This document shows positions 13,301 to 37,952 of a DNA stretch of 64,000 nucleotides, one piece after another. Numbering within the stretch: position 1 is the first letter of the stretch; the number at the start of each line of letters is the position of its first letter. The translations under genes and the position numbers were made by a program. A model generated the notes under the pieces. The model was not told the DNA's origin. It saw only the letters and a list, made by a program, of their open reading frames with translations, and did no database searches. The DNA is from Chitinophaga polysaccharea (GTDB taxonomy: Bacteria; Bacteroidota; Bacteroidia; Chitinophagales; Chitinophagaceae): contig NZ_VIWO01000002.1 in NCBI RefSeq assembly GCF_007829335.1, positions 372,001-436,000 of the forward strand, in the 5' to 3' direction.

Positions 13301-13477
13301 CTGGCCTATGCTTCGCAGCGCTTTACCCCGGCCCGGATACAACGCCTGGTAGACTACTTCCAGGAAATTATTACACAAGTATTATCCTCTCCCGATATAC
13401 AATTAAAGGATATTCATCTGTCACATCAGCTGGAAACAGCCGTTAACCAGGTTGAGAAGATATCCTTCCGGTTCTGA
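10340..13477 (+). CDS. Non-ribosomal peptide synthetase, A-T-C
   Basis: This 1045-residue protein starts directly with an adenylation domain (YFTSGSTGKPK at residues 160-170; TGDKGR and GRIDRQIKLRG further on; NGK near the A-domain end). A T domain follows (GGNSF, Ser556), then a condensation domain (HHIIADG, 735-741) that runs to the C-terminus. It begins with A and the previous NRPS ends with C, so the two probably form one split module in trans. The specificity residues read roughly DARHFSFLIK, which I cannot match to a known amino acid. There is no N-terminal condensation or obvious docking domain. The start ATG at 10340 leaves a 42-base gap after asnB. Confidence 0.95.
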   Translation: MSNEIFQLQLKTALRTYSRQIALMQGDRKVTYETLAANACCITRVLLRTPGFSKGDFVGILCSSKPHIITAITGISCAGGVFVPLDTVLPAARILQMADTVSLPMVIASREDSGVAGIIAQLQQQKIHIFYIEDMLQAEECEDTEFPEVAYHRNDALYIYFTSGSTGKPKAILGQNMSLHHFINWEINTFKVTAGERFSQLITPGFDAFLRDVFVPLFSGGTICIPEDPQLVLQADTLSAWLNREEIQYIHCVPSIFGLISNAATIHSYPRLQYVFLSGERIVPATLKPWYALFGSRIQLVNFYGATETTLIKTYYEIRPADADSQNISVGKPMEGARVLVLDEQLNICDPLVPGEVFISTPYAAKGYYNEEALTRQKFMFDPYDPNPDGRIFKTGDKGRLLADGNLELLGRIDRQIKLRGVRIEPEEVETILLQHPSVKEAAVVTTTINDTTMLCACLVPVTDGTGNSEEILQYAHTCLPDYMVPGKIKWLSAFPRKVNGKLDYDQLVALLQPVSEPVSQPLTALEQQLFDTWAGILKNNQFGADSTFFEVGGNSFHLIGLVAKVYSQFRVRLTIEEIFKYNSIRKLAIFLEGKMTQEAPDIKPAPLRDYYPLSAAQFRIYHQQQLQPEGTGYNLPQCFEVTGPVDMGKVEEVFRQMVQRHESLRTCFKMVGGEVVQQVLQEVDFRIDYQVSTEAVPALISRFVRPFNLAEAPLLRVTLVKRGPAQYLLMMDVHHIIADGLSQLLLNKEFSSLYMDLPAALPVLQYKDFAVWQQQQRTNEVVQQQQQYWLKALANPPAVLSLPGEQATDHAAGALHHFTLARESYQRLKKMAKEKETTIFVLLLTAYNILLSRLSGQDDIIVGTAASGRQHVALDKMIGMFVNTLALRNQLSPDMSFDTLLKQVHKNTLAALQHQDYPLEDIIHQLQLPRGKRHPLFSVMLVLQNMSVGSENIPGITIAPYPIAESTSRFDLTLYGQDTGNDLVFRLAYASQRFTPARIQRLVDYFQEIITQVLSSPDIQLKDIHLSHQLETAVNQVEKISFRF

Positions 13478-13504: not shown

Positions 13505-14315
13505 ATGCTTTATTCCATGTTTCGACAAGAACAACTGGATATACTAACGGCCGCATCTATCCATAACCAGCGGGAAAAAGAATACTGGTTAACGATCATG
13601 GCCGGAGAACTGCCCCATAGCAGCCTGCCTGCAGCGCACAACACCGATCCCAAAGCGACTACCTGTCACCACTACGAGTTTTCAATAGGAGATAAGCTGC
13701 ACCAGCGTTTGCAGCTATTAAGCAATGATTCAGATTACTCCCTGCAGGTAATATTAATGGCTGCACTGCAGGTAATGCTGAGTAAGTATACCGACAACGC
13801 CGATGTGATAACGGGGACGCCTATATACCGGCAAACGGAATTGTCGGCCGACCAGTTGATAAATACCGTTCTCGCCATCAGGGGGACGATAGAGGGGAAT
13901 GCTACTTTTGCTTCTTTGCTGGAAGCCATGGGGCAACAGATGGTGCTGGCTATGCAACACCAGAACTACCCGATAGAGGTACTGCAGCAGGAACTGGCAG
14001 ACAGCCTGGTGCCTGGTGCTGAGGGACTTTTCAGTGTAGCCCTTTTATTAGACAATATACAGGAACTGCATTATCTCGATAGTGTACAGCCAGATATTAC
14101 CTTCGTATTTACCTCAACCGACAGCTCGCTCAAAGGACAGCTGATATATAAAACGGGCAGGTATGATGACGCTGTGGCAGCACGCTTGGCGCACCACTAT
14201 TGTACGCTGCTGCAATACCTGGTTACCCATGTAGAACAGCCACTGTACCTGGCCGATATGATGCCGCCAGAAGAAGCTACCCTGATTCACCAGCAATTCA
14301 ATGCTACCAGCCGCG
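13505..14315 (+). other. Half condensation domain (C-terminal lobe only) at NRPS N-terminus
   Basis: The first ~270 residues align by eye with the second half of the neighbouring C domains, beginning at the EKEYWL segment that matches QEAYWL in the other C domains. The N-terminal lobe with the catalytic HHxxxDG is absent. The preceding protein ends in a complete C domain, so this fragment is probably structural, a docking element, or a remnant. Confidence 0.75.
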
Positions 14316-17300
14316 AATATAATAACGCTGCGCAATGCCTGGCACAACTGATGGAAGCGCAGGTACAGCGTGATCCCACCCGGATTGCCGTTACCTGGCC
14401 GGATGGTGTATATACTTACGAGATGTTGAACCGCAAAGCTAACCAGCTTGGCAACGTACTACGTACCGCCGGTGCGGGTCCCAACCAGGTGGTGGGCGTA
14501 TTGGCGGAGCGTTCGCCCGAAATGCTGACAGCGATCCTGGGTACTATGAAATCCGGGGCCGCCTATTTACCGATTGATCCTTCCTACCCGGCAGAACGAA
14601 TACAGTTCATGGTGGAAGATAGCGGCTGTAAATACCTGATGGTACAATCGCATCTAACGGTACCGCCTATATCAACTGGCGTAACCATATTTAATCTGAA
14701 TGACCCTGGCTTATATACCGGCAGTGGTGAAGACCTGCCATGGGTAAATAAGCCGGCCGACCTGGCCTATGTGATCTATACTTCCGGATCTACCGGCAAT
14801 CCCAAGGGGGTAATGATTGAGCAGCATTCGCTGGTGAACCGGCTCAACTGGATGCACGACCGTTACCGCTTAACCGGTACCGATGTGATCCTGCAAAAAA
14901 CGCCTTTTACATTTGACGTATCTGTGTGGGAGCTTTTCTGGTGGCTGTTTACAGGAGCGGGTGTTTATCTGCTGGCGCCCGGAACAGAGAAATACCCCGA
15001 CCAGATGGTGGCGGAAATAAAAGCCAATAACGTTACCGTTATGCACTTTGTGCCTTCCATGCTGGTGGTGTTCCTGGAATACGTGTCTGCCACCGGGTGT
15101 GCAGCTGCCCTGGCCTCGCTCCGGCAGGTATTTACCAGCGGCGAAGCGCTGAGCGCGGCAGCAGTAAAGGAGTTTAGCCGCCTGCTGCCAGGATGTGCGC
15201 TATCTAACCTCTACGGACCTACGGAGGCCACTATCGATGTATCCTACTTTGACTGCCCCGCAACAGGCGTCCCTGACAGTATACCCATTGGTAAGCCCAT
15301 CGATAACATACAGCTGTATATTACCAACCGCCATCAGCAGTTGCAGCCAATTGGCGTAGCGGGAGAGTTGTGTATTGGCGGCGTGGGACTGGCACGCGGG
15401 TACCTCAATCGCCGGGAGCTGACAGCAGAAAGATTTATCACGGTGCCCTGGCACGACACGCCGGTATATCGTACCGGCGACCTGGCCCGCTGGCTGCCCG
15501 ATGGTAATATTGCTTACCTGGGTCGCATTGACAACCAGGTAAAGATCCGGGGGTACCGCATTGAACTGGGCGAAATTGAACAGCAACTGCTGAAGCTCGA
15601 CACCGTGCGGGATGCCCTGGTACTGGTACAACAAAGGGAACAGGACAAGTACCTCCGCGCATTTGTAGTGCCGGCAGCGCCCTGTACAGAGCATACCATT
15701 AAAGAAGCCCTTGGCCAGGTGTTGCCCGTATACATGGTGCCTGCCTATATCACGTTATTGGATACACTGCCGCTTACCCCCAATGGCAAGGCCGACAGGA
15801 AAGCGCTACAGCGCATGCCCCTGTTTGTAGAAACAGCCGCACAGCATTGGGACGATCCGCGGGAGCAAATGGTGGCAGATATCTGGAAAGAGGTACTTAA
15901 GACCGTGGCGGCCAATGCCGCCGACAATTTCTTTTATCACGGCGGAGATTCTATCCTGGCCATACGCCTGGTGAGTAAAGTAAATACACAACTCCAGGCC
16001 AACATCGACCTGGCAGCGTTTTATGAAGTACAAACACTGGGAGGACTGATTACCCTGGCAACGGCTACGGATACACGCGCGGCTACGGCAGAGAAGACAG
16101 CGGCGCTGGAAGAGATCCATACCTTTGAATCGCAATACCTGGTTGGTATTTCAGCGGAGGGAAAACAGAATATTGACAGGGTTTATCCCATGAGCGATAT
16201 CGAGAAAGGGATGTGTTATCACCACCTGAAAGATCCTGCCTTGAATGTTTACTACGAGCAAAATACGCTCGATTTTCTTTTCAGTGACATCGATATTGAA
16301 CTGATTGTGCGGGCGTTGAAGTTGATGATCGCCAAGCACCCGGCACTTCGTACGGCATTTGATCTAAACCGTCTGGCGCATGTAGTCTATAAAGAAATTC
16401 CCTTGCCGCTACAGGTAGAAGATCTCATGGATAAAGACAGGGATACGCAGCAGCAGGTGATCGGCCAGTTTCTGAAAGAAAGTAAGCTGAAGGCGTTTCC
16501 ATTGGCCAGTGTGCCACTGTGGCGAATTACAATGTTCCGGATCAATGCAGGGCACCTGGTATTTACAATGGAAGCACACCATGCTATTTTTGATGGTTGG
16601 AGCTGGGCCTCGTTTATGACGGAATTCAGCAACGTTTATTTCCGGTTAAAGGAAGACCCCGGTTTTGCCCCATTGCCCCTGAAATGTACTTTCGAAGATT
16701 ATATCCTGGAAGAACTGTTGTGCAAGCGGAACAAAGCCATTACCACCTTCTGGAAAAATGAACTGGAGGGATATCAGCGGCTACAACTCAATGGCAGCAA
16801 GGAATCGCCGGAGTACCTGAAAATGTTCCGCACGTTCGATAGCCAATACCTGCACGGGTTACAACAGGTAGCCGAGCAGTACCAGGTGCAGGTAAAACAC
16901 CTGCTCTTTGCGGCCTATGTATATGCCACGAAGATGTTGACCTATGAAAATGATATTGTTACCGGGTTGGTGGCTTTCAGCCGCCCCCTGGTGGAAGACG
17001 GAGAGCGCCTGCTGGGTTGCTTCCTGAATACAGTACCTGTGCGTATACAGGTGCCGGCAGGGCTATCGTGGCGGGAGTACCTGGCGGCCGTGGAGGAAAA
17101 ACTGGCATTGATCCGAAAATATGATCAGCTGCCTTTACTGAGTATTGTAGAACAAACCAGGGAACAATACAGCGGCGGCAATCCGTTGTTTGACGCGCAA
17201 TTCAACTTCGTTAATTTCCACGTCTGGAAAGAAATCAACGATAATACAACGGTAGGCGGAACAGGTGTACCATTCAGATTTGAAAGCTACCTGCGGGAAA

Positions 17301-20300
17301 ATACACTGTTCGATTTCAATGTCGACCTGACAGACGGCAACCTCAATATTGCTATCGAATATTTCACCGCTTATATCAGTACGCCGGCGTTACAACAACT
17401 ACTTTCCTGTTTTGAAAAAGCGTTGTATCACCTGCAATGTACACCTGATGAAAAGATAGACCCGCTGTTGTTGATAGCCGGTGATGTACAGCAGATCCGG
17501 GAAGTATTTAATACTACTGTAAAGCCATATGAGCAGGCAAACAATACGCTGGCGCAGCTCATGGAAGCACAGGTGCGCCAACACCCTTCCCGCATAGCGG
17601 TAAGCTGGTCAGGAGGCGCCTATACCTATGAAGAACTGAATACCAGAGCCAACCAGCTGGGCGCCATGCTACGTGCATTGGGCGCGGGCCCCGACCAGGT
17701 AGTAGGTATATTGGCCGAACGTTCCCCGGAAATGCTCGTAGCCATCCTGGCAGTAGTGAAATCCGGCGCTGCTTATCTACCTATTGATCCTGCATACCCC
17801 GCAGACCGGATACAATTTATGCTGGAAGACAGCGGCTGCAGCTACCTGCTGAAACAGCAACAGTTTCCTACTCCCGGTATTGAAGGAAACATCACTGTAC
17901 TAAATATCAATAATGCGGCACTTTACAAAGGCGTAGGAGCTGACCTGCCATTAGTAAATACGCCAGCTGATCTGGCCTATATCATTTATACGTCCGGTTC
18001 CACCGGCAAGCCCAAAGGCGTGATGATAGAACAGCATGCCCTGGTAAACCGGCTCTGCTGGATGCAGTCGAAGTATCCGCTGAACAGCACGGATAAGATC
18101 CTGCAAAAGACGCCGTTTACTTTCGATGTATCGGTATGGGAACTCTTCTGGTGGCTCTTTACCGGCGCAGGTGTTCACTTGTTGTCCGCCGGCGCCGAAA
18201 AATTCCCTGATCAGATCGTGGAGGAAATAGCGGCTAACGAGGTCACCGTCATGCATTTTGTGCCTTCGATGCTCACCGCATTCCTGGACTATGTTGCCGG
18301 TGCTGGATGCGAAGCGTCCCTGCAATCCCTGCGACAGGTATTTGCCAGTGGCGAGGCGCTGTCAGCATCGGCGGTGAAGGCTTTTAATCGCCTGTTGCCG
18401 GGATGTGCGCTGTCTAACCTCTACGGACCTACGGAAGCCACTATTGATGTGTCTTACTACGACTGTCCTAAAACCGATGTGCCGGACAATATACCCATTG
18501 GTAAACCCATCGATAACCTACAGTTATATATCACAGACCGTTATCAGCAGCTGCAACCAATCGGCGTTCCGGGTGAGCTTTGTATTGGCGGTAAAGGTCT
18601 TGCCCGCGGGTATCTCAACCGGCCAACGCTAACCGCAGAGCGGTTTGTCCGGGTGCCATGGAGCGACTCCTCCGTGTATCGTACCGGCGACCTGGCCCGC
18701 TGGCTGCCGGATGGGAACATCGAATACCTGGGCCGTATCGATAGCCAGGTAAAAATCCGCGGCTATCGGATTGAATTAGGAGAGATTGAAGAAGTATTAC
18801 TGCAATACGAAGACGTATCACAGTGCGCGGTGATCGCAAAACCCACCGCCGGTGATGCATTGCAGCTGCATGCTTATATTGTTCCCCAGGGAATGTTCAA
18901 CCGTGAACGGATATACGAATACCTGAAACAACGTTTACCCGCTTATATGATACCACCGTTCCTGGTGGAAATGACCGCCCTTCCGCTTACCGGCAGCGGT
19001 AAACTGGATCGCAAAGCATTGCCGGAAATGGAAGCACGCAGCCAAAGCCGGCAACAACCCGCTCGCCCGCGTAACTCCATAGAGCTGCAACTCCAAACGA
19101 TCTGGAAAGAGTTGCTGGGAGTAGCAGAGATAGGTATTCATGATAATATCTTCGAATGGGGAGGACATTCCCTGATGGCGATGAGAGCTATCGGCGCCAT
19201 CAATACCGCCACAGGAGCAAATGCAGTGATCAGAGATGTTTTTGCGCATACCACCATTGCGCAGTTTGCAGCCTTACTGGAAGAGAAAGGTGTAGTGGCT
19301 CTGCCGCTGGCGCCCACCTTCCTGCGTAAAGGCCCCTTATCCTTTTCCCAGGAGAGATTATGGTTCATAGACAGCCTGCAGGGCAGCGTGCATTATCATA
19401 TGCCCGTGGTCGTGAAAATGGAAGGACCACTGAACGTACAAGCCCTGCAACAGGCGCTGGAAAGTCTTATTGAGAGGCATGAAATCCTGCGTACGGTTAT
19501 CCGGGAGGAAGGTGACCAGGTGTTCCAGTTATTGCGGGAAACAGGCGGCTGGACCATGCAATATACCGACGATGCTTCCCTGAAGGATAAAACCCTGCTG
19601 GAAGCACACCTGGAAGAACAGATCCGGCAACCATTTGATCTTTCGGCAGATTATATGTTACGGGCAGAACTGATCCGGCTGGCGCCTGATATACACATAC
19701 TCCTTACCGTTACTCACCATATCGCAACAGACGGTTGGTCGCTGTCATTGATGATAAAAGAACTGATGGAGTTATACGTGGCGGCAGAAGAGAACAGAAG
19801 TCCGCGCCTGCCGGTGTTGCCCTGGCAGTACGCAGACTATGCGGAATGGCAGCGCGCACACCTGCAGGGCGATGCCCTGGCTACGCAACTCAACTATTGG
19901 GTGGGTAAGCTGAAAGGTGTATCGCCACTTGACTTTCCGACCGATCGCGTCCGGCCGGCGGTAGAAAGAATGCACGGAAGTATCGTACACCACAACATAT
20001 CATTGGAACATGCTACGCAGCTGAAAGCACTCTCCCGGAAAGAAGGCGTTACCCTCTTCATGACACTCCTGGCAGCTTTTAAAGTATTGCTGTACCGCTA
20101 CAGCGGGCAGGAAGATATCTGCGTAGGGATCCCGATCGCTAACCGTACCCGGGAAGAAGTGGAAAAGATGGTGGGCTTTTTTGTGAATACGCTGGCCCTG
20201 CGCAGCGATTTAGGAGGCAAGCCATCCTTTAGTGAATTTTTGCAACAGGTAAGGGAAACTACCCTCGACGCCTATACGTACCAGGAGGTGCCCTTTGAAA

Positions 20301-23300
20301 GGATTGTAGAACTGGTGGGTGCTGCCCGTGATATGACCCGCAGCCCGTTGTTCCAGGTCATGTTTGTATTCCAGAACACGCCGGCTACAGAAGTGATGAA
20401 CTTCGGAAATATCAGCGTATCGCAGGCAAACTATGAACCGGAAACCGCCAAATTCGATTTCTCCTTCGAAGTAACGGAAGTTGCCGCAGGCTTACGTGTG
20501 AACATAGAATTCAAAACTGACCTTTTCAATGCGTCGACCATTCAACGGATGGCCGCACATTATGAACAACTACTGATAGCCATCGCCAGCGACCCCTCCC
20601 AGAAAGTGAACGAGCTCCCCCTGATGACGAAAGGGGAAGAACGCCACCAGCTCGCCGGCTTCAACAATACCACTGTCCCTTATCCGGCTGATACCACAGT
20701 GGTGCACCTGTTTGAAGAACAGGTAGCCAGAACGCCTGGTAAAATTGCGGTGACTTACGGAGAACAATCGCTTACCTTCCGGGAGTTGCATCAGCAGTCA
20801 GCCGCGCTGGCCGCTTTCCTGCAAACGAAGGGCGTAAGCCGGGGAGAGATGATTGCCCTCTGCCTCAACCGCTCACTGGAAATGATCATCGGCATCTGGG
20901 GTATCCTTAAAGCCGGATGTGCCTACGTACCTATTGATCCGGCTTACCCGGCCGACCGGATTAGTTATATACTTACAGATACGGATACACGATTAATATT
21001 GACAGATGAGTCATCGGCCTCCCGTATTCCGATGGCAGAAAACCTGGAGCAAGTGCTGTTGGATACACATTGGCCTGTCATCAGGGATACGCCGCCAGTA
21101 GACACCGATAGCTACCCGCAGCCGCACGACCTGGTATACGTTATCTATACGTCTGGTTCTACCGGCAAGCCTAAAGGGGTGATGATAGAACATCATTCGC
21201 TGGTAAACCGTCTTACCTGGGGGCAACAGCAATACCCGCTGCATACAACAGATGTAATCATCCAGAAAACACCTTTTACGTTTGACGTATCCGTATACGA
21301 GCTGTTTTGCTGGTCATTCACCGGCGCGCAGCTATACCTGCTGAAACAGGGAGAAGAGAAGTATAGCGACCGGATTGTGGAAGTGATGATCAATGAGAAA
21401 GTGACCATCATGCACTTCGTACCCTCTATGCTCACGCCGTTCCTGGAATACATACAGGAATCGCCGGAATTACAGCAGTTGAAAGGCCTCCGGCAGGTAT
21501 TTACCAGTGGCGAAGCATTATCAGCCGCTGCTGCCCGGCAGTTTAAACAGCTGCTGCCCTGGTGTGCATTATCTAACCTTTACGGACCTACGGAAGCCAC
21601 GATCGAAGTGTCTTACTACAACTGTCCCGACGACAATATCCCGGATAATATTCCCATAGGGCGTCCTATCAACAATACCCGCCTGTATATTGTGGATGCC
21701 TGGGGCAAACTACAACCGGTAGGCATTGCGGGCGAATTATGTATTGCCGGTGTGGGGCTGGCCCGCGGTTATCGTAACCGGGACGATCTCACGGCAGAAA
21801 AATTCGTATCCGCTGCCTGGACCGATGAACGGATATACCGTACCGGTGATCTGGCCCGCTGGCTGCCCAATGGGAATATCGAATACCTGGGCCGCATCGA
21901 CGACCAGGTAAAAATAAGAGGCTACCGGATTGAACTGGGCGAGATTGAAAACGTGTTATTGCAACACCCGGCAGTAAGCCAGGCGGTGGTAATTGCCCGG
22001 GCCGATCATAGCGGGGTTAAGCGCTTACAAGCCTATGTTATTTGCCGGGCGCCATTTGATAAAAGCGATATCCTCGCATTTATCGGCAAACATGTACCAG
22101 TGTATATGGTACCGGATATTCTCCTGGAGTTACCCGACTTCCCGCTGACTACAAGTGGTAAGGTGAATAAGAAAGAATTGCCTGATTCGGACAATACTGG
22201 CATCCAATCAGTATATGTAGCTCCCCGCAATACCACCGATCAGCAGCTGGCTGCCATCTGGCAGGAGTTGTTACGGCTTCCGCAGGTGAGCATCCAGGAT
22301 AACTTTTTCCGCCTCGGTGGTCATTCTCTCATGGCTATGCGGGTAATGGCTGCCATACGGAAAGATATGGGCGTTGCACTGTCTATCAAAGACCTGTTTA
22401 CCTATACCACGATCACTGCACTATCAGATTATATCAGCAATCGTGGCACCAGCAGCCCCGTGCCAGCTATTGCTCCTGTGGCGGTATCCGCCAGGCCTGC
22501 ACGGATTCCGTTATCTTTCTCCCAGGAAAGGCTCTGGTTTATTGACCGCCTGGAAGGAAGTATACATTATCATATTCCCGGGGTGCTGGAGCTGAACGGT
22601 ACGCTCGATAAAGAGGCACTGGAATATGCCTTCCGCGAAGTAGTGAACCGTCACGAGGTACTGAGAACCGTATTGCGGGAAGAAGACGGAAGGCCCTACC
22701 AGGAGGTAATGCCGGAAAACCGGTGGAAGATGATCTATCGCGAAGATCCTTCAATGACCGACCAGCAACGCTGGCAGGCGCATGTGGTGAATAGTATCCA
22801 GCAGCCTTTTGACCTGGCCACAGACCATATGCTGCGCATCGAACTGGTGAAACTATCCGACGTAAAACACAAGATGATCCTGGTTATACACCATATCGCA
22901 GCAGATGGTTGGTCGGTATCTATTCTTACCAGGGAGCTGTCGGAATACTACCATGCCTGGCTGGAGCAACGCGCACCGGTACTGGACGCATTGCCTTTGC
23001 AATATGGCGATTACGCCACCTGGCAAAGAGGATACCTGCAAGGGGAAGTATTGGAGCAGCAATTGAAATACTGGAAAGATACCCTGACAGGGATTCCGCT
23101 GCTGCAACTGCCGGCCGATTTTGAGCGCCCGGCTATAGAAACGATGAAAGGTGGCGTTATTCACTACCGGGTAGATGAAACTGTTTGTGCGCAACTAAAG
23201 GACCTGGCGCAGCGCGAGGGCGTTACTTTATTTATGCTGTTAATAGCCGCCCTGAAGGTGCTCCTGTTCCGCTACAGCCGCCAGGAAGATATTTGTATAG

Positions 23301-25534
23301 GCGTTCCCGTAGCCAACCGTATGGAAAAGGAACTGGAGCCATTGATCGGCTTTTTTGTAAATACGCTGGCCCTCAGAAGCCGTTTCCGGGGACAGCAGTC
23401 TTTCGCGGAGCTATTGCAACAGGTAAAGCAAACCACCCTCGATGCATACGCCCACCAGGATGTCCCTTTCGAGAAAATAGTGGAGTCTGTAGGCGTGGAA
23501 AGAAGCATGAATCACAGCCCGCTTTTCCAGGTGATGTTTGTGCTGCAAAACACCCCGGAGATTATGGAGAGCAGGTTAGGAGAGGCGGTGATCAGGCCCG
23601 AAGAGTTTAATCGCACCACCTCCAAATTCGATCTCACGTTCGATATCACCGAAATGCAAAATGGGCTTTCCCTGCTGGTAGAATACAACAGCGATGTATA
23701 TGCCGCCGCTTCCATGGAAAGACTGGGGGCGCACTATTGCCAACTGCTGAAGGCGATTGCAGAAAGTATTCAGCCATCATTGCAGGAGTTAGCGGTTGCC
23801 AGCGAAGAAGAACTGGCTACGGTAGCCGACTTTAGTCAGGGACCGGCAACGCCGCCTCCTGCCACAACGGTGCTGGATACGCTGGCACAACTGGCCCTTA
23901 CATATGGTGCTGTCACCGCCGTGGTGGCTGGTTCTGAGCAATACTCGTTTGCCGCGCTGGAAACATGGTCCGGGCAATTAGCCCGCCGCCTGCAACAGGC
24001 AGGCGTAAGACCTGCCGATGTAGTTGGTATCAGCATGACCGCCTCTCCGCAGCAGCTCATTGCTTTACTGGCCATCTGGAAATCCGGCGCCACAGCCGTG
24101 CCGCTGAATGCGGATACACCGCCAGAGTACTGGCGGAATGTGGTAAAACAAACGGGCGCGCAGTGGTTGTTGACTGATAGGGATATAACCCGATTGCCAG
24201 CTGGACTACTAACAGTAATAGATATAAGGGGGCAGGCAGCAGATATGCCGGACGTAGGAAAGGATCTGTCATTGTCTCTGAACAGCACCGCTTACACCAG
24301 TTATACTACCGGGGCGGATGGTTTGCCATTAGGTTTTACCGTAAGCCACGCACAGCTTGGTAGCCGCCTGGAACAGGCCGGGAAGGCCTACCTGGGGGAG
24401 GGCATGGGAACAACCGCCACCGTAGCCCATGAAGGACTTGGCTTCGATAAATGGTTAACGGTTGTATTGGCCTCATTGCTGGCAGGGAAGAAGGTGGTAA
24501 TGCTGGCGCAGACCCTGCCTGAAATGCTCGACAACCCCGATTTACTAAAATATGCTCCTTACGATTTTATCGCGTTACCTTCCTCCGCATTGCCCCTGGT
24601 GGCAGAGCTGGCGGCTGTTTGGAAGTTGACCGATAAATACGTCACCAGTGGAAGGCCCTTGCAACGGGCACATCTTGCGGAGTTGGCCGCCGTTAATGAG
24701 CGTTGTATTATCGTGAACGAATACAACGCACCTGGCGCAGCCATCGGTTGTATTGCCACCAGTATATGTATCACCGATGCCGTTAGTCAGCCGGGAAATA
24801 GCATACGCCTCGGCCGCCCACAAAACAATGTAACGGCCCTGGTATGGGATACCCTCGGCCGTCCTGTTCCGCCCGGAATGCCCGGAGAGCTGTGTATTGC
24901 CAGCAACGCCACCCCTTATCATACCGGCGACCTGGTACGCTGGGACCAGGAAGGCAACCTCGAATACCTCGGCCGCCTGGACAATGTGATAGAAATAAAC
25001 GATCACCTGGTGAATCCCGCAGCAGCGCACCACTTGCTCCTGCGATATGCCGGGGTACAAGATGCCCTGGTAGCGGTGAAACCCGGTACAGAAGGCACAC
25101 TGCAGCTACAAGCCTGGGTAGTGGCCAACTCCGGATTTACGCCCTACGACGCCATGCAATGGCTGTCGGAATACTTGCCTGCACAGTGGTTACCTGCCCA
25201 AATTACCCTGATAGAGGCACTCCCGGTATTGACAACTGGTCGCTTGCAGGAAGGTCATTTGTCCGATAATGGCCAGCCAAAAGGCGATGATACGCCGGCA
25301 ACACCCACAGAAATCATACTGGCAGCCATCTGGCAGGAAGTACTGAAGGTAGAACGGATAGGACTATACGATAATTTCTTTGAAAAGGGCGGAGACTCAC
25401 TGGTGACCGTAAAAATATTGAACCAGGCCCGAAAGAAAGGCATCGTATTCCGTATCCGCGACATTTTTATGCACCAGACAGTCGCCTCCCTGGCCGCCTT
25501 TATAGATGCCAGCGTAGCAACACCTCAATCCTGA
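13505..25534 (+). CDS. Non-ribosomal peptide synthetase, (C-lobe)-A-T-C-A-T-C-A-T-C-A*-T
   Basis: A 4009-residue synthetase with four A-T units. Residues 1 to about 270 are only the second lobe of a C domain, with no HHxxxDG. A1 is followed by T1 (GGDS, Ser816) and a C domain of a different subtype (VYPMSDIEKGM start, HHAIFDG 1025-1031). A2-T2 (Ser1889) is followed by an LCL-type C (SFSQERLWF start, HHIATDG 2071-2077). A3-T3 (Ser2941) is followed by a similar C (HHIAADG 3129-3135). The last A domain is degenerate, and T4 (Ser3965) ends the protein. A1 and A2 codes both read DVWHFSLIDK, a serine code; A3 reads DVYHFSLIEK, a Ser-like variant of unknown substrate. No epimerase, thioesterase or reductase domain is present. 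It lies 27 bases after the A-T-C NRPS gene. Confidence 0.96.
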   Translation: MLYSMFRQEQLDILTAASIHNQREKEYWLTIMAGELPHSSLPAAHNTDPKATTCHHYEFSIGDKLHQRLQLLSNDSDYSLQVILMAALQVMLSKYTDNADVITGTPIYRQTELSADQLINTVLAIRGTIEGNATFASLLEAMGQQMVLAMQHQNYPIEVLQQELADSLVPGAEGLFSVALLLDNIQELHYLDSVQPDITFVFTSTDSSLKGQLIYKTGRYDDAVAARLAHHYCTLLQYLVTHVEQPLYLADMMPPEEATLIHQQFNATSREYNNAAQCLAQLMEAQVQRDPTRIAVTWPDGVYTYEMLNRKANQLGNVLRTAGAGPNQVVGVLAERSPEMLTAILGTMKSGAAYLPIDPSYPAERIQFMVEDSGCKYLMVQSHLTVPPISTGVTIFNLNDPGLYTGSGEDLPWVNKPADLAYVIYTSGSTGNPKGVMIEQHSLVNRLNWMHDRYRLTGTDVILQKTPFTFDVSVWELFWWLFTGAGVYLLAPGTEKYPDQMVAEIKANNVTVMHFVPSMLVVFLEYVSATGCAAALASLRQVFTSGEALSAAAVKEFSRLLPGCALSNLYGPTEATIDVSYFDCPATGVPDSIPIGKPIDNIQLYITNRHQQLQPIGVAGELCIGGVGLARGYLNRRELTAERFITVPWHDTPVYRTGDLARWLPDGNIAYLGRIDNQVKIRGYRIELGEIEQQLLKLDTVRDALVLVQQREQDKYLRAFVVPAAPCTEHTIKEALGQVLPVYMVPAYITLLDTLPLTPNGKADRKALQRMPLFVETAAQHWDDPREQMVADIWKEVLKTVAANAADNFFYHGGDSILAIRLVSKVNTQLQANIDLAAFYEVQTLGGLITLATATDTRAATAEKTAALEEIHTFESQYLVGISAEGKQNIDRVYPMSDIEKGMCYHHLKDPALNVYYEQNTLDFLFSDIDIELIVRALKLMIAKHPALRTAFDLNRLAHVVYKEIPLPLQVEDLMDKDRDTQQQVIGQFLKESKLKAFPLASVPLWRITMFRINAGHLVFTMEAHHAIFDGWSWASFMTEFSNVYFRLKEDPGFAPLPLKCTFEDYILEELLCKRNKAITTFWKNELEGYQRLQLNGSKESPEYLKMFRTFDSQYLHGLQQVAEQYQVQVKHLLFAAYVYATKMLTYENDIVTGLVAFSRPLVEDGERLLGCFLNTVPVRIQVPAGLSWREYLAAVEEKLALIRKYDQLPLLSIVEQTREQYSGGNPLFDAQFNFVNFHVWKEINDNTTVGGTGVPFRFESYLRENTLFDFNVDLTDGNLNIAIEYFTAYISTPALQQLLSCFEKALYHLQCTPDEKIDPLLLIAGDVQQIREVFNTTVKPYEQANNTLAQLMEAQVRQHPSRIAVSWSGGAYTYEELNTRANQLGAMLRALGAGPDQVVGILAERSPEMLVAILAVVKSGAAYLPIDPAYPADRIQFMLEDSGCSYLLKQQQFPTPGIEGNITVLNINNAALYKGVGADLPLVNTPADLAYIIYTSGSTGKPKGVMIEQHALVNRLCWMQSKYPLNSTDKILQKTPFTFDVSVWELFWWLFTGAGVHLLSAGAEKFPDQIVEEIAANEVTVMHFVPSMLTAFLDYVAGAGCEASLQSLRQVFASGEALSASAVKAFNRLLPGCALSNLYGPTEATIDVSYYDCPKTDVPDNIPIGKPIDNLQLYITDRYQQLQPIGVPGELCIGGKGLARGYLNRPTLTAERFVRVPWSDSSVYRTGDLARWLPDGNIEYLGRIDSQVKIRGYRIELGEIEEVLLQYEDVSQCAVIAKPTAGDALQLHAYIVPQGMFNRERIYEYLKQRLPAYMIPPFLVEMTALPLTGSGKLDRKALPEMEARSQSRQQPARPRNSIELQLQTIWKELLGVAEIGIHDNIFEWGGHSLMAMRAIGAINTATGANAVIRDVFAHTTIAQFAALLEEKGVVALPLAPTFLRKGPLSFSQERLWFIDSLQGSVHYHMPVVVKMEGPLNVQALQQALESLIERHEILRTVIREEGDQVFQLLRETGGWTMQYTDDASLKDKTLLEAHLEEQIRQPFDLSADYMLRAELIRLAPDIHILLTVTHHIATDGWSLSLMIKELMELYVAAEENRSPRLPVLPWQYADYAEWQRAHLQGDALATQLNYWVGKLKGVSPLDFPTDRVRPAVERMHGSIVHHNISLEHATQLKALSRKEGVTLFMTLLAAFKVLLYRYSGQEDICVGIPIANRTREEVEKMVGFFVNTLALRSDLGGKPSFSEFLQQVRETTLDAYTYQEVPFERIVELVGAARDMTRSPLFQVMFVFQNTPATEVMNFGNISVSQANYEPETAKFDFSFEVTEVAAGLRVNIEFKTDLFNASTIQRMAAHYEQLLIAIASDPSQKVNELPLMTKGEERHQLAGFNNTTVPYPADTTVVHLFEEQVARTPGKIAVTYGEQSLTFRELHQQSAALAAFLQTKGVSRGEMIALCLNRSLEMIIGIWGILKAGCAYVPIDPAYPADRISYILTDTDTRLILTDESSASRIPMAENLEQVLLDTHWPVIRDTPPVDTDSYPQPHDLVYVIYTSGSTGKPKGVMIEHHSLVNRLTWGQQQYPLHTTDVIIQKTPFTFDVSVYELFCWSFTGAQLYLLKQGEEKYSDRIVEVMINEKVTIMHFVPSMLTPFLEYIQESPELQQLKGLRQVFTSGEALSAAAARQFKQLLPWCALSNLYGPTEATIEVSYYNCPDDNIPDNIPIGRPINNTRLYIVDAWGKLQPVGIAGELCIAGVGLARGYRNRDDLTAEKFVSAAWTDERIYRTGDLARWLPNGNIEYLGRIDDQVKIRGYRIELGEIENVLLQHPAVSQAVVIARADHSGVKRLQAYVICRAPFDKSDILAFIGKHVPVYMVPDILLELPDFPLTTSGKVNKKELPDSDNTGIQSVYVAPRNTTDQQLAAIWQELLRLPQVSIQDNFFRLGGHSLMAMRVMAAIRKDMGVALSIKDLFTYTTITALSDYISNRGTSSPVPAIAPVAVSARPARIPLSFSQERLWFIDRLEGSIHYHIPGVLELNGTLDKEALEYAFREVVNRHEVLRTVLREEDGRPYQEVMPENRWKMIYREDPSMTDQQRWQAHVVNSIQQPFDLATDHMLRIELVKLSDVKHKMILVIHHIAADGWSVSILTRELSEYYHAWLEQRAPVLDALPLQYGDYATWQRGYLQGEVLEQQLKYWKDTLTGIPLLQLPADFERPAIETMKGGVIHYRVDETVCAQLKDLAQREGVTLFMLLIAALKVLLFRYSRQEDICIGVPVANRMEKELEPLIGFFVNTLALRSRFRGQQSFAELLQQVKQTTLDAYAHQDVPFEKIVESVGVERSMNHSPLFQVMFVLQNTPEIMESRLGEAVIRPEEFNRTTSKFDLTFDITEMQNGLSLLVEYNSDVYAAASMERLGAHYCQLLKAIAESIQPSLQELAVASEEELATVADFSQGPATPPPATTVLDTLAQLALTYGAVTAVVAGSEQYSFAALETWSGQLARRLQQAGVRPADVVGISMTASPQQLIALLAIWKSGATAVPLNADTPPEYWRNVVKQTGAQWLLTDRDITRLPAGLLTVIDIRGQAADMPDVGKDLSLSLNSTAYTSYTTGADGLPLGFTVSHAQLGSRLEQAGKAYLGEGMGTTATVAHEGLGFDKWLTVVLASLLAGKKVVMLAQTLPEMLDNPDLLKYAPYDFIALPSSALPLVAELAAVWKLTDKYVTSGRPLQRAHLAELAAVNERCIIVNEYNAPGAAIGCIATSICITDAVSQPGNSIRLGRPQNNVTALVWDTLGRPVPPGMPGELCIASNATPYHTGDLVRWDQEGNLEYLGRLDNVIEINDHLVNPAAAHHLLLRYAGVQDALVAVKPGTEGTLQLQAWVVANSGFTPYDAMQWLSEYLPAQWLPAQITLIEALPVLTTGRLQEGHLSDNGQPKGDDTPATPTEIILAAIWQEVLKVERIGLYDNFFEKGGDSLVTVKILNQARKKGIVFRIRDIFMHQTVASLAAFIDASVATPQS
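23860..25270 (+). other. Degenerate, probably inactive adenylation domain (A*)
   Basis: Residues about 3453-3922 of the 4009-residue NRPS keep the A-domain outline but lose its core motifs. The ATP-binding loop reads YTTGADGLPLG (3600-3610) in place of YTSGSTGxPKG, the A5 motif reads NEYNAPGAA (from 3738) in place of NxYGPTE, the A8 hinge reads GRLDNVIEINDH in place of GRxDxQVKIRGxR, and the A10 lysine is Arg3913. The frame is intact, which argues for a retained scaffold rather than a fresh pseudogene. Confidence 0.88.
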
Positions 25535-25565: not shown

Positions 25566-26360
25566 ATGCGTACGGCAAAGAAAGAAGTGATAGGCGTGAT
25601 TGGCGGCTGCGGCCCCCATGCCGGTATTATGCTGGCAGAAAATATTTTCAGACAAACCCTTGCCGGCTCAGACCAGGAGCATTTACCCATGTTGCTGTCA
25701 TCTATGCCAGACCAGATACCCGACAGAACAGCCTTTATCCTGGGAGATGCTGATGAAAATCCCGCCTGTGCTATTGCCTCGATCATCCTGCAAATGGAGG
25801 CGCAGGGCGTTACAGTGGCAGGCATTGCCTGCAATACTTCCCATGCCCCCATTATCTATCACACGATACAGGGAATTCTCCACGCAGCCAGGTCAGAAGT
25901 GAAATTGCTGCATATGATTGAGGAAACGATGTATTTCCTGGAAGAACATTTCAGGCAGGCAAAACGGATCGGCGTACTGGCCACTGATGGTACCTATAAA
26001 ACCGGGTTGTATGAATACGCTTTGCAGCAGCATGGTTTTAACTATATCAAGCCGCCGGCAGACTTTCAGCATAAATATATCCACCAGTGTATCTATGACA
26101 AGAAATACGGTATCAAATGTCAGTCAGCGCCGGTTACACCACAGGCCATGGAAATAATGGAAAAGGCCGTGCAGTACTACCGCGACAAAGGCGCAGAAGC
26201 GCTGGTGCTGGGATGTACGGAGTTTTCGCTGGCGCTTAACCGTAGTACCGTATTTGATATACCGGTGATAGATTCTACGAAAGTGATGGCCCGCGCGCTT
26301 ATCCGGGAAGCGGCGCCGCATAAATTATGTCAACTAAACTATCACCAACTGACTGTATAA
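25566..26360 (+). CDS. Aspartate/glutamate racemase family protein
   Basis: A 264-residue cytoplasmic protein of the cofactor-independent Asp/Glu racemase superfamily. The N-terminus has the typical GVIGGCGPHAG loop. The two catalytic cysteines are Cys89 (GIACNTSHA) and Cys217 (LGCTEFSL), so both acid/base residues are present. The family interconverts L- and D-Asp or L- and D-Glu. The gene starts 31 bases after the large NRPS gene, and its stop is separated by one base from the thioesterase start, so it belongs to the cluster operon. No epimerase domain is visible in the NRPSs in the window, so a free racemase supplying D-Asp or D-Glu is a reasonable inference. The exact substrate cannot be read from the sequence. 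Confidence 0.88.
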   Translation: MRTAKKEVIGVIGGCGPHAGIMLAENIFRQTLAGSDQEHLPMLLSSMPDQIPDRTAFILGDADENPACAIASIILQMEAQGVTVAGIACNTSHAPIIYHTIQGILHAARSEVKLLHMIEETMYFLEEHFRQAKRIGVLATDGTYKTGLYEYALQQHGFNYIKPPADFQHKYIHQCIYDKKYGIKCQSAPVTPQAMEIMEKAVQYYRDKGAEALVLGCTEFSLALNRSTVFDIPVIDSTKVMARALIREAAPHKLCQLNYHQLTV

Positions 26361-26361
26361 T

Positions 26362-27075
26362 ATGCAAAAGATTAAACTGTTTTGTTTTCCATTTGCCGGC
26401 GGCGCCGCCTCATTTTATAACCCCTGGAGAACGTTGCTGCCGGACTATCTCGAACTGCATTGCTTTGAATTGGCCGGTCGTGGCAGCCGTATCACGGAAT
26501 CGTTGTATAGCTCCATCGCAGAAATAGTAGATGAGATCATGATTAAACTGCGGCCCGCATTTGAATCTGGCCCCTATGCGCTCTTCGGGCACAGCATGGG
26601 TGGTATCATTGTATACGAGCTGACAAAGCGGATCAGTGAACAAAACATGCCCATGCCCGTGCAGATATTTATTTCCGGGAAAGGTCCCTTGCATTTACCA
26701 AGACCGGAACTGAAGATATACAGCATGCCCGACGATGAGTTTCAGAAAAATATGATTGAAATGGGAGGGATCTCAGAGGACTTTTTCCGCTCACCAGAAC
26801 TGGCTTGTCTTTTTATCCCGGTTATCCGCAATGACATGCGGCTGGCAGAAACATTTGAAGTGAAAGAGCTGGCGCGGCTGAGCTGTAACATTACCGTTTT
26901 TTATGGCGAAGAAGAAATATTGAAACCCACCGATGTAGAGCAGTGGCGATATTACACCAAAGGCGTTTTTAAAGCACACTACTTCAAAGGCGGACATTTT
27001 TTTATCAAGGATTATACCCGCGAAATCATAGATATTATATCCAACACCATCATGCAAACCCAAATGAGCTGCTGA
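26362..27075 (+). CDS. Type II thioesterase (NRPS editing)
   Basis: A 237-residue alpha/beta hydrolase of the external thioesterase family found with NRPS clusters. It begins with the family signature FCFPFAGGAASFYNPW. The nucleophile elbow GHSMGG is at 76-81 (Ser78) and the catalytic His is His212 (GGHFF). Such enzymes remove wrong acyl groups or stalled residues from carrier proteins in the cytoplasm. No integrated thioesterase domain is visible in the window, so this protein could also take part in release, but that is speculation. It is directly coupled to the racemase gene (one base between stop and start). Confidence 0.93.
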   Translation: MQKIKLFCFPFAGGAASFYNPWRTLLPDYLELHCFELAGRGSRITESLYSSIAEIVDEIMIKLRPAFESGPYALFGHSMGGIIVYELTKRISEQNMPMPVQIFISGKGPLHLPRPELKIYSMPDDEFQKNMIEMGGISEDFFRSPELACLFIPVIRNDMRLAETFEVKELARLSCNITVFYGEEEILKPTDVEQWRYYTKGVFKAHYFKGGHFFIKDYTREIIDIISNTIMQTQMSC

Positions 27076-28080: not shown

Positions 28081-28113
28081 TCTATGTATTCATCTCCTAA
28101 CAAGATAGCTATT

Positions 28114-30894: not shown

Positions 30895-31929
30895 ATGAAA
30901 GGAAAAACGATCAAATGCCTGGTATGGGATCTTGATAATACGCTTTGGAACGGCACGCTGCTTGAATCGGAAGAAGTAACCCTGAAAGACAGGATAGTAG
31001 AGGTAATCCGCGAGCTGGATGAAAAAGGTATTGTACATTCTATTGCCAGTAAAAACAGCTATGAGGATGCCATGACCCGGTTAAAGCATTTTGGTATTGA
31101 TCAATATTTCCTGTACCCGGAAATACACTGGAATGCCAAATCTGCTTCTATCGACAATATCCGCAGGCAACTCAATATCGGCATCGATGCCATTGCGTTT
31201 ATAGATGATCAGCCCTTTGAACGCGAAGAGGTGAACAGCGTGTTCCCGGAGGTATATTGCCTCGATGCAGCCGAATATGGGCAGCTGGTGCACTACGATT
31301 GCTTTAACCCTCCGCAGGTTACGGAAGATGCCCGGCGCCGCCGGAAAATGTACCAGGAAGAAATACAGCGGAAAGAGGAAGAAGAAAATTTCCAGGGCCC
31401 GTCAGAATCATTTCTCGCCGGGCTGAATATGGAACTGTATATCACGCCCGCCACAGTACATGACCTGGCCCGTGCAGAAGAATTAACGCTGCGTACCAAC
31501 CAGCTCAACGCCACCGGGAAAACGTACAGCTACACGGAATTGGAACAGATACTAACTTCCCCCGATCACCTGCTCTGGGTATGCGAATTCAAAGATAAAT
31601 ACGGTTCCTACGGTAAAATAGGACTGGTCCTGCTGCATATCTCCGAACACAACTGGCACCTCGAAATGATGCTATATTCCTGCCGGGTGATGTCCAGGGG
31701 AATCGGCACGGTGATGCTGAATTACATATTGGAACAGGCACGCTCCTGCGGTAAAACCATGACCGCCGGATTCCGCGATACAGGGCGTAACCGGATGATG
31801 TATATGGCCTTTAAAATGGGCGGATTTACAGAAACGGGACAACAGCGGGGAGATTGCTCCCTGCTGTCACACTCCCTCGAAAATATCCGCCAAAACCCCG
31901 CCTACATTAAAATTCTTACTCAATACTAA
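30895..31929 (+). CDS. FkbH-like HAD-family glyceryl transferase
   Basis: A 344-residue two-part protein. The N-terminal half is a HAD-like domain with the DxDNT motif (WDLDNTLWNG, Asp12 and Asp14), and the C-terminal half is GNAT-like (around IGLVLLHI and MSRGIGTVML). FkbH enzymes take 1,3-bisphosphoglycerate, remove phosphate and load the glyceryl group onto a dedicated ACP. That ACP gene follows directly after 11 bases. This is the most diagnostic gene of the extender-unit set. The window shows no O-methyltransferase, so the predicted product is hydroxymalonyl-ACP rather than methoxymalonyl-ACP, unless a methyltransferase lies upstream. Confidence 0.93.
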   Translation: MKGKTIKCLVWDLDNTLWNGTLLESEEVTLKDRIVEVIRELDEKGIVHSIASKNSYEDAMTRLKHFGIDQYFLYPEIHWNAKSASIDNIRRQLNIGIDAIAFIDDQPFEREEVNSVFPEVYCLDAAEYGQLVHYDCFNPPQVTEDARRRRKMYQEEIQRKEEEENFQGPSESFLAGLNMELYITPATVHDLARAEELTLRTNQLNATGKTYSYTELEQILTSPDHLLWVCEFKDKYGSYGKIGLVLLHISEHNWHLEMMLYSCRVMSRGIGTVMLNYILEQARSCGKTMTAGFRDTGRNRMMYMAFKMGGFTETGQQRGDCSLLSHSLENIRQNPAYIKILTQY

Positions 31930-31940
31930 ACGATTGCACC

Positions 31941-32201
31941 ATGGAAGTAAAAGATAAAATCAGGGCCTTTATCGTAAAGAATATGTCGGTATGGGACGAT
32001 GATATTGTACTCGCAGATACAGACAATATCTTCGAAAAGGGCTTTGTTAACTCGTTGTTTGCCATGCAGCTGCTCAATTTTGCCGAGCAGGAATTCAATA
32101 TCACTATTGATAACAGTGAGATAGATATCGCCAACTTCAGCTCTGTCAGTAATATGGAGCAACTGGTCACCCGTAAACTGCTACTGCTCCATGCCAGGTA
32201 A
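31941..32201 (+). CDS. Acyl carrier protein of the FkbH set
   Basis: An 86-residue discrete acyl carrier protein. The likely phosphopantetheine site is Ser38 in GFVNSLFAMQLL, following the acidic helix-1/loop region (DNIFEKG). It lies between the FkbH-like and acyl-CoA dehydrogenase genes and overlaps the start of the latter by 11 bases, which points to translational coupling. It is expected to carry the glyceryl and then hydroxymalonyl group. Activation by the Sfp-type transferase encoded about 3 kb downstream is likely. Confidence 0.9.
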   Translation: MEVKDKIRAFIVKNMSVWDDDIVLADTDNIFEKGFVNSLFAMQLLNFAEQEFNITIDNSEIDIANFSSVSNMEQLVTRKLLLLHAR

Positions 32202-35939: not shown

Positions 35940-37952
35940 GTGAAAAATCTTATCGACATGCTCATGGCTGCCGCCGCAACAGACCGGCAGCTCACCCTGA
36001 TAGCCGGCAAAGGAGAAGAGGAACAGCTTTCCTACCGCCAATTATACCAGGATGCCCGCTGCCTCTTATGGCGTTTGCAACAGGCCGGCTTGCAACCTGG
36101 TAATGAGTTGATGCTGCAGTTTCAGTCAGATATTTACTTTATAAAGATCTTCTGGGCTTGTGTAATAGGCGGCATCATCCCGGTGCCCGTTACCTTCGGC
36201 GTGGGAGAAACGGTGGCGATGAAGATTGCCAACATCTGGAAGTCGCTCTCACATCCTTACCTGGCCACCGATTTTTCGGATTACGCCGCCCGCATGGAGC
36301 AAGTGGCGGCCGGTCACCTGGTAAAAGAGCGGATACTGGTGTTGAAGCCAACAGACATTTCCGGACCAACAGCCGCACCGGTGTCTGTACCGCCGGAACA
36401 AATTGCGTTCTTACAGTTCTCTTCCGGTTCTACCGGTGTTCCCAAGGGCGTCATGAACACCCATGAAGGCATCCTGCAAAACCTGGTGGATATGGCCCGT
36501 TGCTTCGGACTCAGGAAGGAAGACCGCTTTATGGGATGGATGCCGCTGACCCACGACATGGGAATGCTCTTTTTCCACATGCTGCCGCTTTACCTGCATG
36601 CATCACACTACCTGATTCCGCCTATACTTTTCCTTACCTATCCTGCGCTCTGGGTGGAAAGCATGGCCAGGCACCGGGTAACCGTTAGTGGCTCCCCTAA
36701 CTTCGGCTATAGATATGTAGCGGAAACGGAGCTGCCGGCGGGGCTTTCTCCCGATGCCCTGCAAAGTGTGCGGATATTGCTGAATAGCGCAGAACCCATT
36801 TCTATAGAAGTTTGTCAGCGCTTTCAGGCAACGCTCGCGCCGGCAGGATTACCTCCTCATGTAATACGACCAGCCTATGGATTGGCAGAGGCTACCCTGG
36901 GGGTAGCTGCACAGGCTTCACAAGGGCCTATACAAGTGCACCGGCTGTTGAGGGACCAGCTTAATATAGGCGACACCGTAGTATATGCCACCGACAATGA
37001 TGCGCAGTCCGTATCATTCGTAGACCTGGGCGCCTGCGCTACTACAACGGCGGTAAGCATCATGAACACGGAAGGCGCTGTACTTCCCGATAATACCGTT
37101 GGATTGATAAAAATAAAAGGTGTGGCAGTAACCGGCGGATACTATAACCTGCCTGAAAGCCGCCACCAGATAGCGCAGGAAGATGGCTGGCTCAATACCG
37201 GCGATCTGGGCTTTATGCAGGAAGGCAGACTGACTATCACCGGCCGTCATAAGGAAATGATTATTATACAGGGACAGAATTTCTATCCCAACGACCTCGA
37301 TATGGTGGCGGCAGAACTGGAATGGACGAAAGACCGCGCAGCAGTGGCCTGCGGCATTCACAACAATGTATTACATACCGATGAAGTCTTTTTCTTCGTG
37401 GCCTACGAAGGAAAAATGCAGCCTTTTATTGCATTGATGAACTCACTGAGGCGCCACATCAGTACCAGGACAGGAGTGAAGGTAAGCCGGGTGATACCGG
37501 TAAAACAAATTCCGAAAACAACCAGCGGCAAAGTACAGCGGTTCAAGCTCCGGGAAGACTACCTGGCGGGCTTATACCAGGAATCGCTGACCAGGCTGGC
37601 CGAAGCGCTCAGCGACCTGGAACCCGCCGGTGAAGGAGTGCCGGCTACAGCAATAGAACAAACACTCGCTAAAGTATGCGCAAAAGCATTGCAGCTGGAA
37701 GGAACGCTGAATATAAAAGACAATTTCTTCGATCTGGGCTGTACATCGCTCACAATAAAAACAATCAGGGGCATGTTGGAAATGGATTGCAATATCGTGC
37801 TGGATGAAACAGTATTTTATCGTTACCCCAATGTGAAAGCGCTGGGCCGCTATATCCGCGAGGGACAAGCCGGGGCAGCAGACGACAAAAAAATGGACAG
37901 GAAAGCGATCCTGGAGGAAGCCAGGCAAAGAATGAAAATAAAGCGGCAATAG
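35940..37952 (+). CDS. Fatty acyl-AMP ligase fused to an acyl carrier domain
   Basis: A 670-residue protein starting at GTG. The ligase part has the ATP loop FSSGSTGVPKG (160-170), FAAL-like segments (WMPLTHDMGM, SGSPNFGYR, ATLGV) and the late catalytic lysine Lys531 (TTSGKVQR). A carrier domain follows with Ser603 in GCTSL, then a basic C-terminal helix rich in Lys, Arg and Glu that may serve for docking. FAALs activate fatty acids as adenylates and pass them directly to a carrier, without CoA. In NRPS clusters this usually loads the acyl starter, so a lipopeptide or acylated precursor is the likely consequence. It is the last gene of the + strand operon; a convergent regulator ends seven bases away. 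Confidence 0.91.
   Translation: MKNLIDMLMAAAATDRQLTLIAGKGEEEQLSYRQLYQDARCLLWRLQQAGLQPGNELMLQFQSDIYFIKIFWACVIGGIIPVPVTFGVGETVAMKIANIWKSLSHPYLATDFSDYAARMEQVAAGHLVKERILVLKPTDISGPTAAPVSVPPEQIAFLQFSSGSTGVPKGVMNTHEGILQNLVDMARCFGLRKEDRFMGWMPLTHDMGMLFFHMLPLYLHASHYLIPPILFLTYPALWVESMARHRVTVSGSPNFGYRYVAETELPAGLSPDALQSVRILLNSAEPISIEVCQRFQATLAPAGLPPHVIRPAYGLAEATLGVAAQASQGPIQVHRLLRDQLNIGDTVVYATDNDAQSVSFVDLGACATTTAVSIMNTEGAVLPDNTVGLIKIKGVAVTGGYYNLPESRHQIAQEDGWLNTGDLGFMQEGRLTITGRHKEMIIIQGQNFYPNDLDMVAAELEWTKDRAAVACGIHNNVLHTDEVFFFVAYEGKMQPFIALMNSLRRHISTRTGVKVSRVIPVKQIPKTTSGKVQRFKLREDYLAGLYQESLTRLAEALSDLEPAGEGVPATAIEQTLAKVCAKALQLEGTLNIKDNFFDLGCTSLTIKTIRGMLEMDCNIVLDETVFYRYPNVKALGRYIREGQAGAADDKKMDRKAILEEARQRMKIKRQ

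Follow-up and report, generated by a model that had tools for sequence, protein, structure and literature searches.

The window analyzed here, a stretch of 64,000 nucleotides from Chitinophaga polysaccharea (assembly GCF_007829335.1, contig NZ_VIWO01000002.1, positions 372,001 to 436,000 of the forward strand), covers part of a biosynthetic gene cluster that includes protein H, a nonribosomal peptide synthetase (NRPS). The subject of this analysis is the last module of H, module 4, which consists of a condensation (C) domain, C4, an adenylation (A) domain, denoted A4*, and a carrier (T) domain, T4. Coordinates are window positions unless another contig or locus is named. Selection is expressed as the ratio of nonsynonymous to synonymous substitution rates (dN/dS); all rates were obtained from a single species pair, C. 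polysaccharea and C. eiseniae Ak56, by a simple counting method. The relevant features of H are:

13505..25534, + strand: NRPS protein H, 4009 amino acids, with the layout half C - A1-T1 - C2-A2-T2 - C3-A3-T3 - C4-A4*-T4
13505-14299: N-terminal half C of H, spanning 187-453 of the 456 Pfam positions
22472..23824, + strand: C4, condensation domain, intact, with HHIAADG at residue 3129; dN/dS 0.037
23861..25270, + strand: A4*, adenylation domain, residues 3453-3922, dead as judged from its motifs
25292..25531, + strand: T4, terminal carrier domain of the GGDS type, with GGDS at residue 3962 and Ser3965 at 25397-25399

H ends with T4 in both species, and no epimerization (E) or thioesterase (TE) domain follows. 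Every A domain other than A4* is paired with its own T domain. C4 resembles an ordinary LCL elongation domain, with at most 51% identity to many LCL domains in the genus. Judged by its domains and motifs, module 4 is an otherwise intact NRPS module, with conserved C and T domains, that carries an A-fold domain whose catalytic motifs are lost. The affected sites of A4*, located by alignment with other A domains, are:

24302..24334, + strand: degenerate P-loop YTTGADGLPLG, from residue 3600
24722..24742, + strand: degenerate A5 motif YNAPGAA, from residue 3740
24905..24916, + strand: gap site of the A6-A7 segment, which in A4* falls about 24 residues short of that in A1-A3
25007..25261, + strand: residues 3835-3919, C-terminal A subdomain, 85 residues missing from C. 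eiseniae Ak56 through an in-frame deletion
25241..25243, + strand: Arg3913, replacing the A10 lysine

The changed columns comprise S3602, S3604, T3605 and K3609 in the P-loop; G3741, P3742, T3743 and E3744 in A5; and Q3828, K3830 and G3833 in A8, where the letters denote the residues of the conserved columns and A4* itself reads otherwise. A previous reading of the same DNA, made from the sequence only, had reported YTTGADGLPLG, YNAPGAA, Arg3913 and Ser3965; all four are correct, and the alignments place the first three at the P-loop, A5 and A10. Its statement that the GRxDxQVKIRG hinge is gone holds in part: G3823, R3824 and D3826 of A8 are kept, and the stretch after D3826 is degenerate, with VIEINDHLVN in place of QVKIRGYRIE in A1-A3. 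Other motif remnants in A4* are YxTGD of A7 and FD of motif A4, and the residual specificity code is DKTAVSEIGR. The Pfam AMP-binding profile matches A4* with 121.5 bits, compared to 314.7, 314.0 and 298.4 bits for the three other A domains of H, and AMP-binding_C gave no match in either A4* or its C. eiseniae copy.

To quantify the loss, we took 26 other A domains as references, namely, A1-A3 of H, five from a second cluster in this genome and 18 from other Chitinophaga genomes, and counted the columns with at least 90% conservation among them. A4* keeps 41 of these 79 columns and loses 38 (34 changed, four deleted), whereas in a leave-one-out count each of the 26 reference domains loses between 0 and 11, so that the loss in A4* is far beyond chance. 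In the same kind of count, C4 keeps 25 of 25 columns; for T4, six columns were counted, of which the three within the protein are all kept and three lie past the protein end. By these criteria, A4* is an in-frame but catalytically dead domain, as the sequence-only reading had claimed. Because A4* appears dead and T4 is intact, T4 would not be charged by its own A domain, and the last step must proceed without a loader of its own.

C. eiseniae Ak56 encodes one near-identical copy of A4* with identical P-loop and A5 lesions, which are therefore not explained by an error in the sequencing of a single genome. The dead form is thus common to the one related cluster that was found. The C. eiseniae copy keeps 38 of the 79 conserved columns and has, besides the 85-residue deletion, two extra residues at the A6-A7 gap site relative to the window A4*. 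Across 21 cluster genes, which included neither the small carrier protein nor the regulator at 37959, and approximately 20,200 compared residues, only these two indels were found, both within A4*. Frameshifts in relatives, which the sequence-only reading would have taken for simple decay, are absent in C. eiseniae Ak56; there is an in-frame deletion instead, and C4 and T4 are strongly conserved. A search of 99 genomes with A4* yielded 35 genomes with a match at 1e-20; among the matches listed, that of C. eiseniae (2.4e-221, 88% identity over 382 residues) is the only near-identical one, and the next best has an E-value of 5.6e-44 and 32% identity. A scan of genome contigs with A4* found three loci, one of which is the C. 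eiseniae orthologue.

The dN/dS of A4* is 0.166 (nonsynonymous versus synonymous, p = 3e-24), compared to 0.047 to 0.144 for nine other NRPS A domains. Its nonsynonymous rate, 0.063, exceeds that of the nine A domains pooled (0.031, p = 8e-6), and, taken singly, eight of the nine are slower than A4* (p of 0.004 or less). The first third of the domain (residues 3453-3619) is relaxed (p = 0.0001 versus the pooled active A domains), and the rate of the middle (3620-3799) does not exceed that of the pool (p = 0.47), with p = 0.058 for the direct comparison of the two parts. T4 has a dN/dS of 0.066 and a lower nonsynonymous rate than A4* (p = 0.003), and the value for C4 is the lowest among the large domains of H. 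Hence, A4* appears to be under purifying selection, far from neutrality, and neutral decay is ruled out as the main account because of its dN/dS and the conservation of C4 and T4. The sequence-only reading had left the fold of the dead domain to structure prediction. AlphaFold2 models of the C-A*-T modules of both species show a regular A core, with mean predicted local distance difference test (pLDDT) scores of 83.6 and 83.7, a measure that is no test of stability; in the C. eiseniae model, a low-confidence stretch of 17 residues occupies the site of the lost subdomain. A4* is accordingly predicted to keep a folded core in both species.

The ninth domain of the rate comparison, E1 (protein E residues 8-505), is not slower than A4* (p = 1.0); its dN/dS of 0.144 is near that of A4*, and its motifs were found intact. 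E1 may be changing specificity.

A tree built from 72 A domains, 71 of them different, places both A4* sequences in a 19-row clade with 100/100 support, within which the position of the long A4* branch is not fixed by the tree. The first nine code positions of the other 17 rows (two of which are the same module) read DATKVGEVG or DATKIGEVG, codes that we take to be Asn/Asp-like. The Asp/Asn section of PMC12283262 gives the similar DLTKIGEVGK and no code starting with DATK. The A4* pair sits on a stem of 2.82 changes per column, compared to 0.03 and 0.08 after the split; thus, A4* changed greatly before the species diverged and less since. Recent death of A4* is accordingly disfavored: the main lesions are common to both species, and most of the change lies on the stem. 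Very probably, to go by the lesions and the tree, A4* was dead before the species split and persists as a structural pseudo-domain that holds the C and T domains in place and activates no amino acid.

The origin of the module is indicated by its carrier domain. We compiled 61 T domains and sorted them by the motif in the downstream sequence. All 40 that precede LCL domains are of the GGHS or GGNS type, and all seven that precede E domains are GGDS and cluster together with T4 and the C. eiseniae orthologue (FastTree support 0.933). Six of these seven are followed by a domain with HHLxVDxVSW, and the seventh, from Dictyobacter, by one with LEGHGR and NYLGQF. T4 scores 92.3 bits with the profile of the seven and 81.4 bits with the profile of the 40, whereas T3 of H shows the reversed order (84.1 and 122.4 bits, respectively). 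Among the loci compared, the best matches of T4 after its orthologue are four T domains preceding E, followed by two preceding a thioesterase. A related pairing is described in PMC10212144, LGGHSL with LCL and LGGDSI with DCL domains. By motif and profile, then, T4 belongs to the class of T domains that precede epimerization domains; what had been called a normal T domain has an intact serine but differs from an ordinary elongation T. A-T-E modules are also the setting of four related A domains (at L025, L029, L032 and L033), and this together with the class of T4 makes the ancestor probably a C-A-T-E module. Module 4 probably descends from such a module with an Asn/Asp-like A domain, in which the A domain died and the E domain was lost.

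Four other related A domains, from other Chitinophaga genomes (L021, L022, L024 and L031), contain, by eye, methyltransferase-like inserts of two kinds. Those at L021 and L022 seemed to be without the A10 lysine, but by eye they are interrupted by the insert and not dead.

The genes downstream of H that bear on the function of module 4 are:

25566..26360, + strand: amino-acid racemase, above the cut-off of TIGR00035; cysteate racemase equivalog 172.9 bits, cut-off 190
26362..27075, + strand: stand-alone type II thioesterase with GHSMG
30895..31929, + strand: FkbH-domain protein
31941..32201, + strand: small carrier protein adjoining FkbH; PP-binding 22.3 bits, cut-off 20.8
35940..37952, + strand: fatty acyl-AMP-ligase-like protein with a carrier domain; best NCBIfam match 324.6 bits, cut-off 600

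Our preferred and still tentative reading, to which we assign a probability of about 0.4, is that module 4 may be a termination module that works by analogy with glidonin. C4 would take the chain from T3 and release it by transfer to a small free nucleophile, either an amine or an unbound amino acid, the latter possibly a product of the racemase; A4* and T4 would stabilize the module, and the product would leave without a thioesterase domain, so that neither a loader nor a TE would be needed. In the glidonin synthetase, the module C13-A*-T13 couples free putrescine to the chain through C13 and requires A*-T13 for stability, and mutation of its T domain abolishes the product (PMC10587159), which agrees with conservation of T4 under release onto a free nucleophile. 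C-T and single-C termination modules are reported in the same source. Module 4 has the glidonin-type layout as far as sequence can tell: like C13-A*-T13-TE of GdnB, it is terminal and combines an intact C domain, an inactive A* and an intact T. The differences are that the glidonin A* keeps only the C-terminal subdomain, whereas A4* keeps the core and has this subdomain degenerate or deleted; that TE domains come after T13 and none after T4; and that the use of a free amine is shown for glidonin and inferred for module 4. The terminal position, the lack of E and TE after T4, the stand-alone TE being of type II and the lack of a recognized dedicated loader all favor release by C4.

Several points weigh against release by C4. 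C4 is of the ordinary LCL elongation type and, in a comparison that did not take in the pocket of glidonin, gives no hint of a dedicated amine pocket; the kept serine and the good conservation of T4 would suit a loaded carrier equally; and no dedicated amine-making enzyme was recognized in the cluster. The racemase is tied to module 4 by adjacency alone. The dN/dS values derive from one species pair and simple counting, the living E1 changes as fast as A4* at nonsynonymous sites, so that speed alone is no mark of death, and a good pLDDT does not demonstrate stability. The shared lesions could also come from recombination between the species.

Alternatively, another A domain might load T4, either in trans or across modules, for example, A3, which has a Ser-like code, or that of protein B (C2:357340-360450), in which case module 4 would be a normal last elongation station with A4* a mere scaffold and release left to a separate enzyme. 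We rate this only slightly below release by C4, and the sequence data do not divide it from release onto a free nucleophile. It fits an ordinary elongation domain at C4 and the conservation of T4, and protein B opens with an A-T that no preceding C domain obviously serves; B is without an obvious place in the gene order because the next protein begins with a ketosynthase. There are also precedents: cystobactamid, in which CysH, a stand-alone A-T protein, and the shuttle CysB work with A3 of CysK (PMC7966384); albicidin, ramoplanin and enduracidin (PMC8949500); CmnI, reportedly charged by CmnA-A1 (PMC12400406); and the fungal synthetases SidC and SidD, where modules without a working A have their T served from elsewhere (PMC10192304). 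CysK module 3 and the dead-A module of albicidin share with module 4 a full-length A domain with degenerate motifs and an intact T (PMC7966384, PMC8949500), and CysK A3 likewise misses the A10 lysine (PMC7966384). However, both of these modules are internal, whereas module 4 is terminal; the dA of SidD lacks about 290 N-terminal residues, at the end opposite to that affected in A4*, and SidC and SidD are nonlinear siderophore synthetases (PMC10192304).

Charging in trans is further opposed by what the genome offers as loaders. No stand-alone amino-acid A-T protein, the counterpart of CysH, was recognized among the annotated cluster genes, although the multidomain A-T-C proteins B and G could be donors; the fatty acyl-AMP-ligase-like protein is the sole stand-alone adenylating protein recognized and is apparently not of the amino-acid type. 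No shuttle of the SyrC/CysB type was recognized in the Pfam annotation of the cluster, with no search aimed at shuttles made, and the neighboring thioesterase is disfavored as a SyrC-like shuttle, being of type II with a serine in GHSMG. Among 28 AMP-binding places in the genome, 11 belong to this cluster, 10 to the second multimodular cluster on the contig designated C4, and seven lie elsewhere; two of the seven were examined and are A-T proteins, a reductase and a hexapeptide-repeat protein, and the other five are open frames of 644, 632, 612, 437 and 110 amino acids. Finally, each A domain besides A4* already has its own T to serve, and T4 is followed by no release domain.

It is unlikely that module 4 is a relic, with the chain released at T3 or earlier and C4-A4*-T4 skipped. 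The lack of an E or TE domain and the far drift of A4* along its stem would agree with this, but decay would be expected throughout a relic module, and C4 and T4 have stayed conserved. We consider it very unlikely that T4 receives its unit from the FkbH-associated acyl carrier protein (ACP), the source suggested in the sequence-only reading. FkbH and the small carrier are indeed present in the cluster, but two polyketide synthase (PKS) modules with acyltransferase domains, the usual users of FkbH-derived units, lie just upstream of the window, so that the FkbH set more probably serves those modules; moreover, an FkbH-derived unit has no amino group to serve as acceptor for C4. That A4* is active in some unusual manner, as the remaining binding residues in motifs A4 and A7 might allow, is hardly credible, given that the serines, threonine and lysine of the P-loop are changed, as are A5, the A10 lysine and most of A8, and that C. 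eiseniae lacks the C-terminal subdomain.

A more specific form of release onto a free nucleophile, which we consider a long shot, is that a terminal C-A-T-E module turned into a release device, with the A domain reduced to a scaffold, the E domain replaced by the free racemase and C4 transferring the chain to a free D-amino acid, so that the final residue would never be ATP-activated or carrier-bound.

Dead A domains in working NRPS lines are already known, and module 4 is not categorically new. By comparison of domain content, what distinguishes it from the precedents is the combination of a terminal module without TE, an A core kept without the C-terminal subdomain, a pre-E T domain without E, and a racemase alongside. 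The species pair constitutes a natural comparison of a full-length dead A domain with a core-only one, with no length change elsewhere in H or in the other 20 genes, and may tell the structurally required portion of an A domain from the dispensable one, a distinction that bears on NRPS engineering. Module 4 would also be a compact system for termination without a thioesterase domain, and product predictions based on the count of A domains would miscount this assembly line.

A NusG-like gene outside the window, on its upstream side, marks the start of the cluster; after it come the two PKS modules, the A-T-C protein B, a beta-lactamase-fold protein and additional NRPS modules. Inside the window, the cluster continues with an asparagine synthase, the A-T-C protein G, H, the racemase and the type II thioesterase, followed by TauD- and PhyH-family oxygenases, a second beta-lactamase-fold protein, and the FkbH set with its carrier; beyond the latter are an ABC transporter, a phosphopantetheinyl transferase, the fatty acyl-AMP-ligase-like protein, a LuxR-type regulator and a CmlA-type hydroxylase. 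The examined text of one paper on Chitinophaga makes no mention of this cluster. The racemase gene starts 31 bases past H and has the lowest dN/dS among the 21 genes (0.021). A search of 79 genomes of the genus found a racemase match in 10, including its own genome, with C. eiseniae Ak56 alone near-identical (99%) and the next at 45%.

The half C that opens H is the C-terminal half of a condensation domain, without the HHxxxDG part, and with a dN/dS of 0.205 it is the fastest among the measured domains of H. The initial A domains of proteins B (L009:5340-8450), E (start at C2:370964) and G (window 10340-13477) form one well-supported clade, with the codes DARHLSLLIK, DARHLSLMIK and DARHFSFLIK, respectively; the similar code DPRHVSLLAK is given for Asn in PMC12283262. 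In a search of 395 genomes drawn from the phylum, protein B matched only its own genome at E-values up to 1e-150.

The NusG-like gene (L014:171-860) lies directly before the first PKS gene, and its product is perhaps a dedicated antiterminator of the long operon. Positions 30895-33330 of the window encode FkbH, the carrier, and 3-hydroxyacyl-CoA and acyl-CoA dehydrogenases, the usual set for hydroxy- or methoxymalonyl-ACP; no O-methyltransferase was recognized there, and the set perhaps supplies hydroxymalonyl-ACP to the upstream PKS modules. Both beta-lactamase-fold proteins (L009:8474-9901 and window 28084-29163) have the ClbP peptidase among their many structural matches. By eye, one of them has TPR-like repeats and no visible signal sequence, and the other has a signal-like start. 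The protein at L009:8474-9901 matches ClbP with an E-value of 2.4e-24, better than the 6ksu chain, presumably SurE, at 8.5e-17. Prodrug cleavage or release is a possible role of these two proteins, with release of the penicillin-binding-protein type possible for the one at L009:8474-9901.

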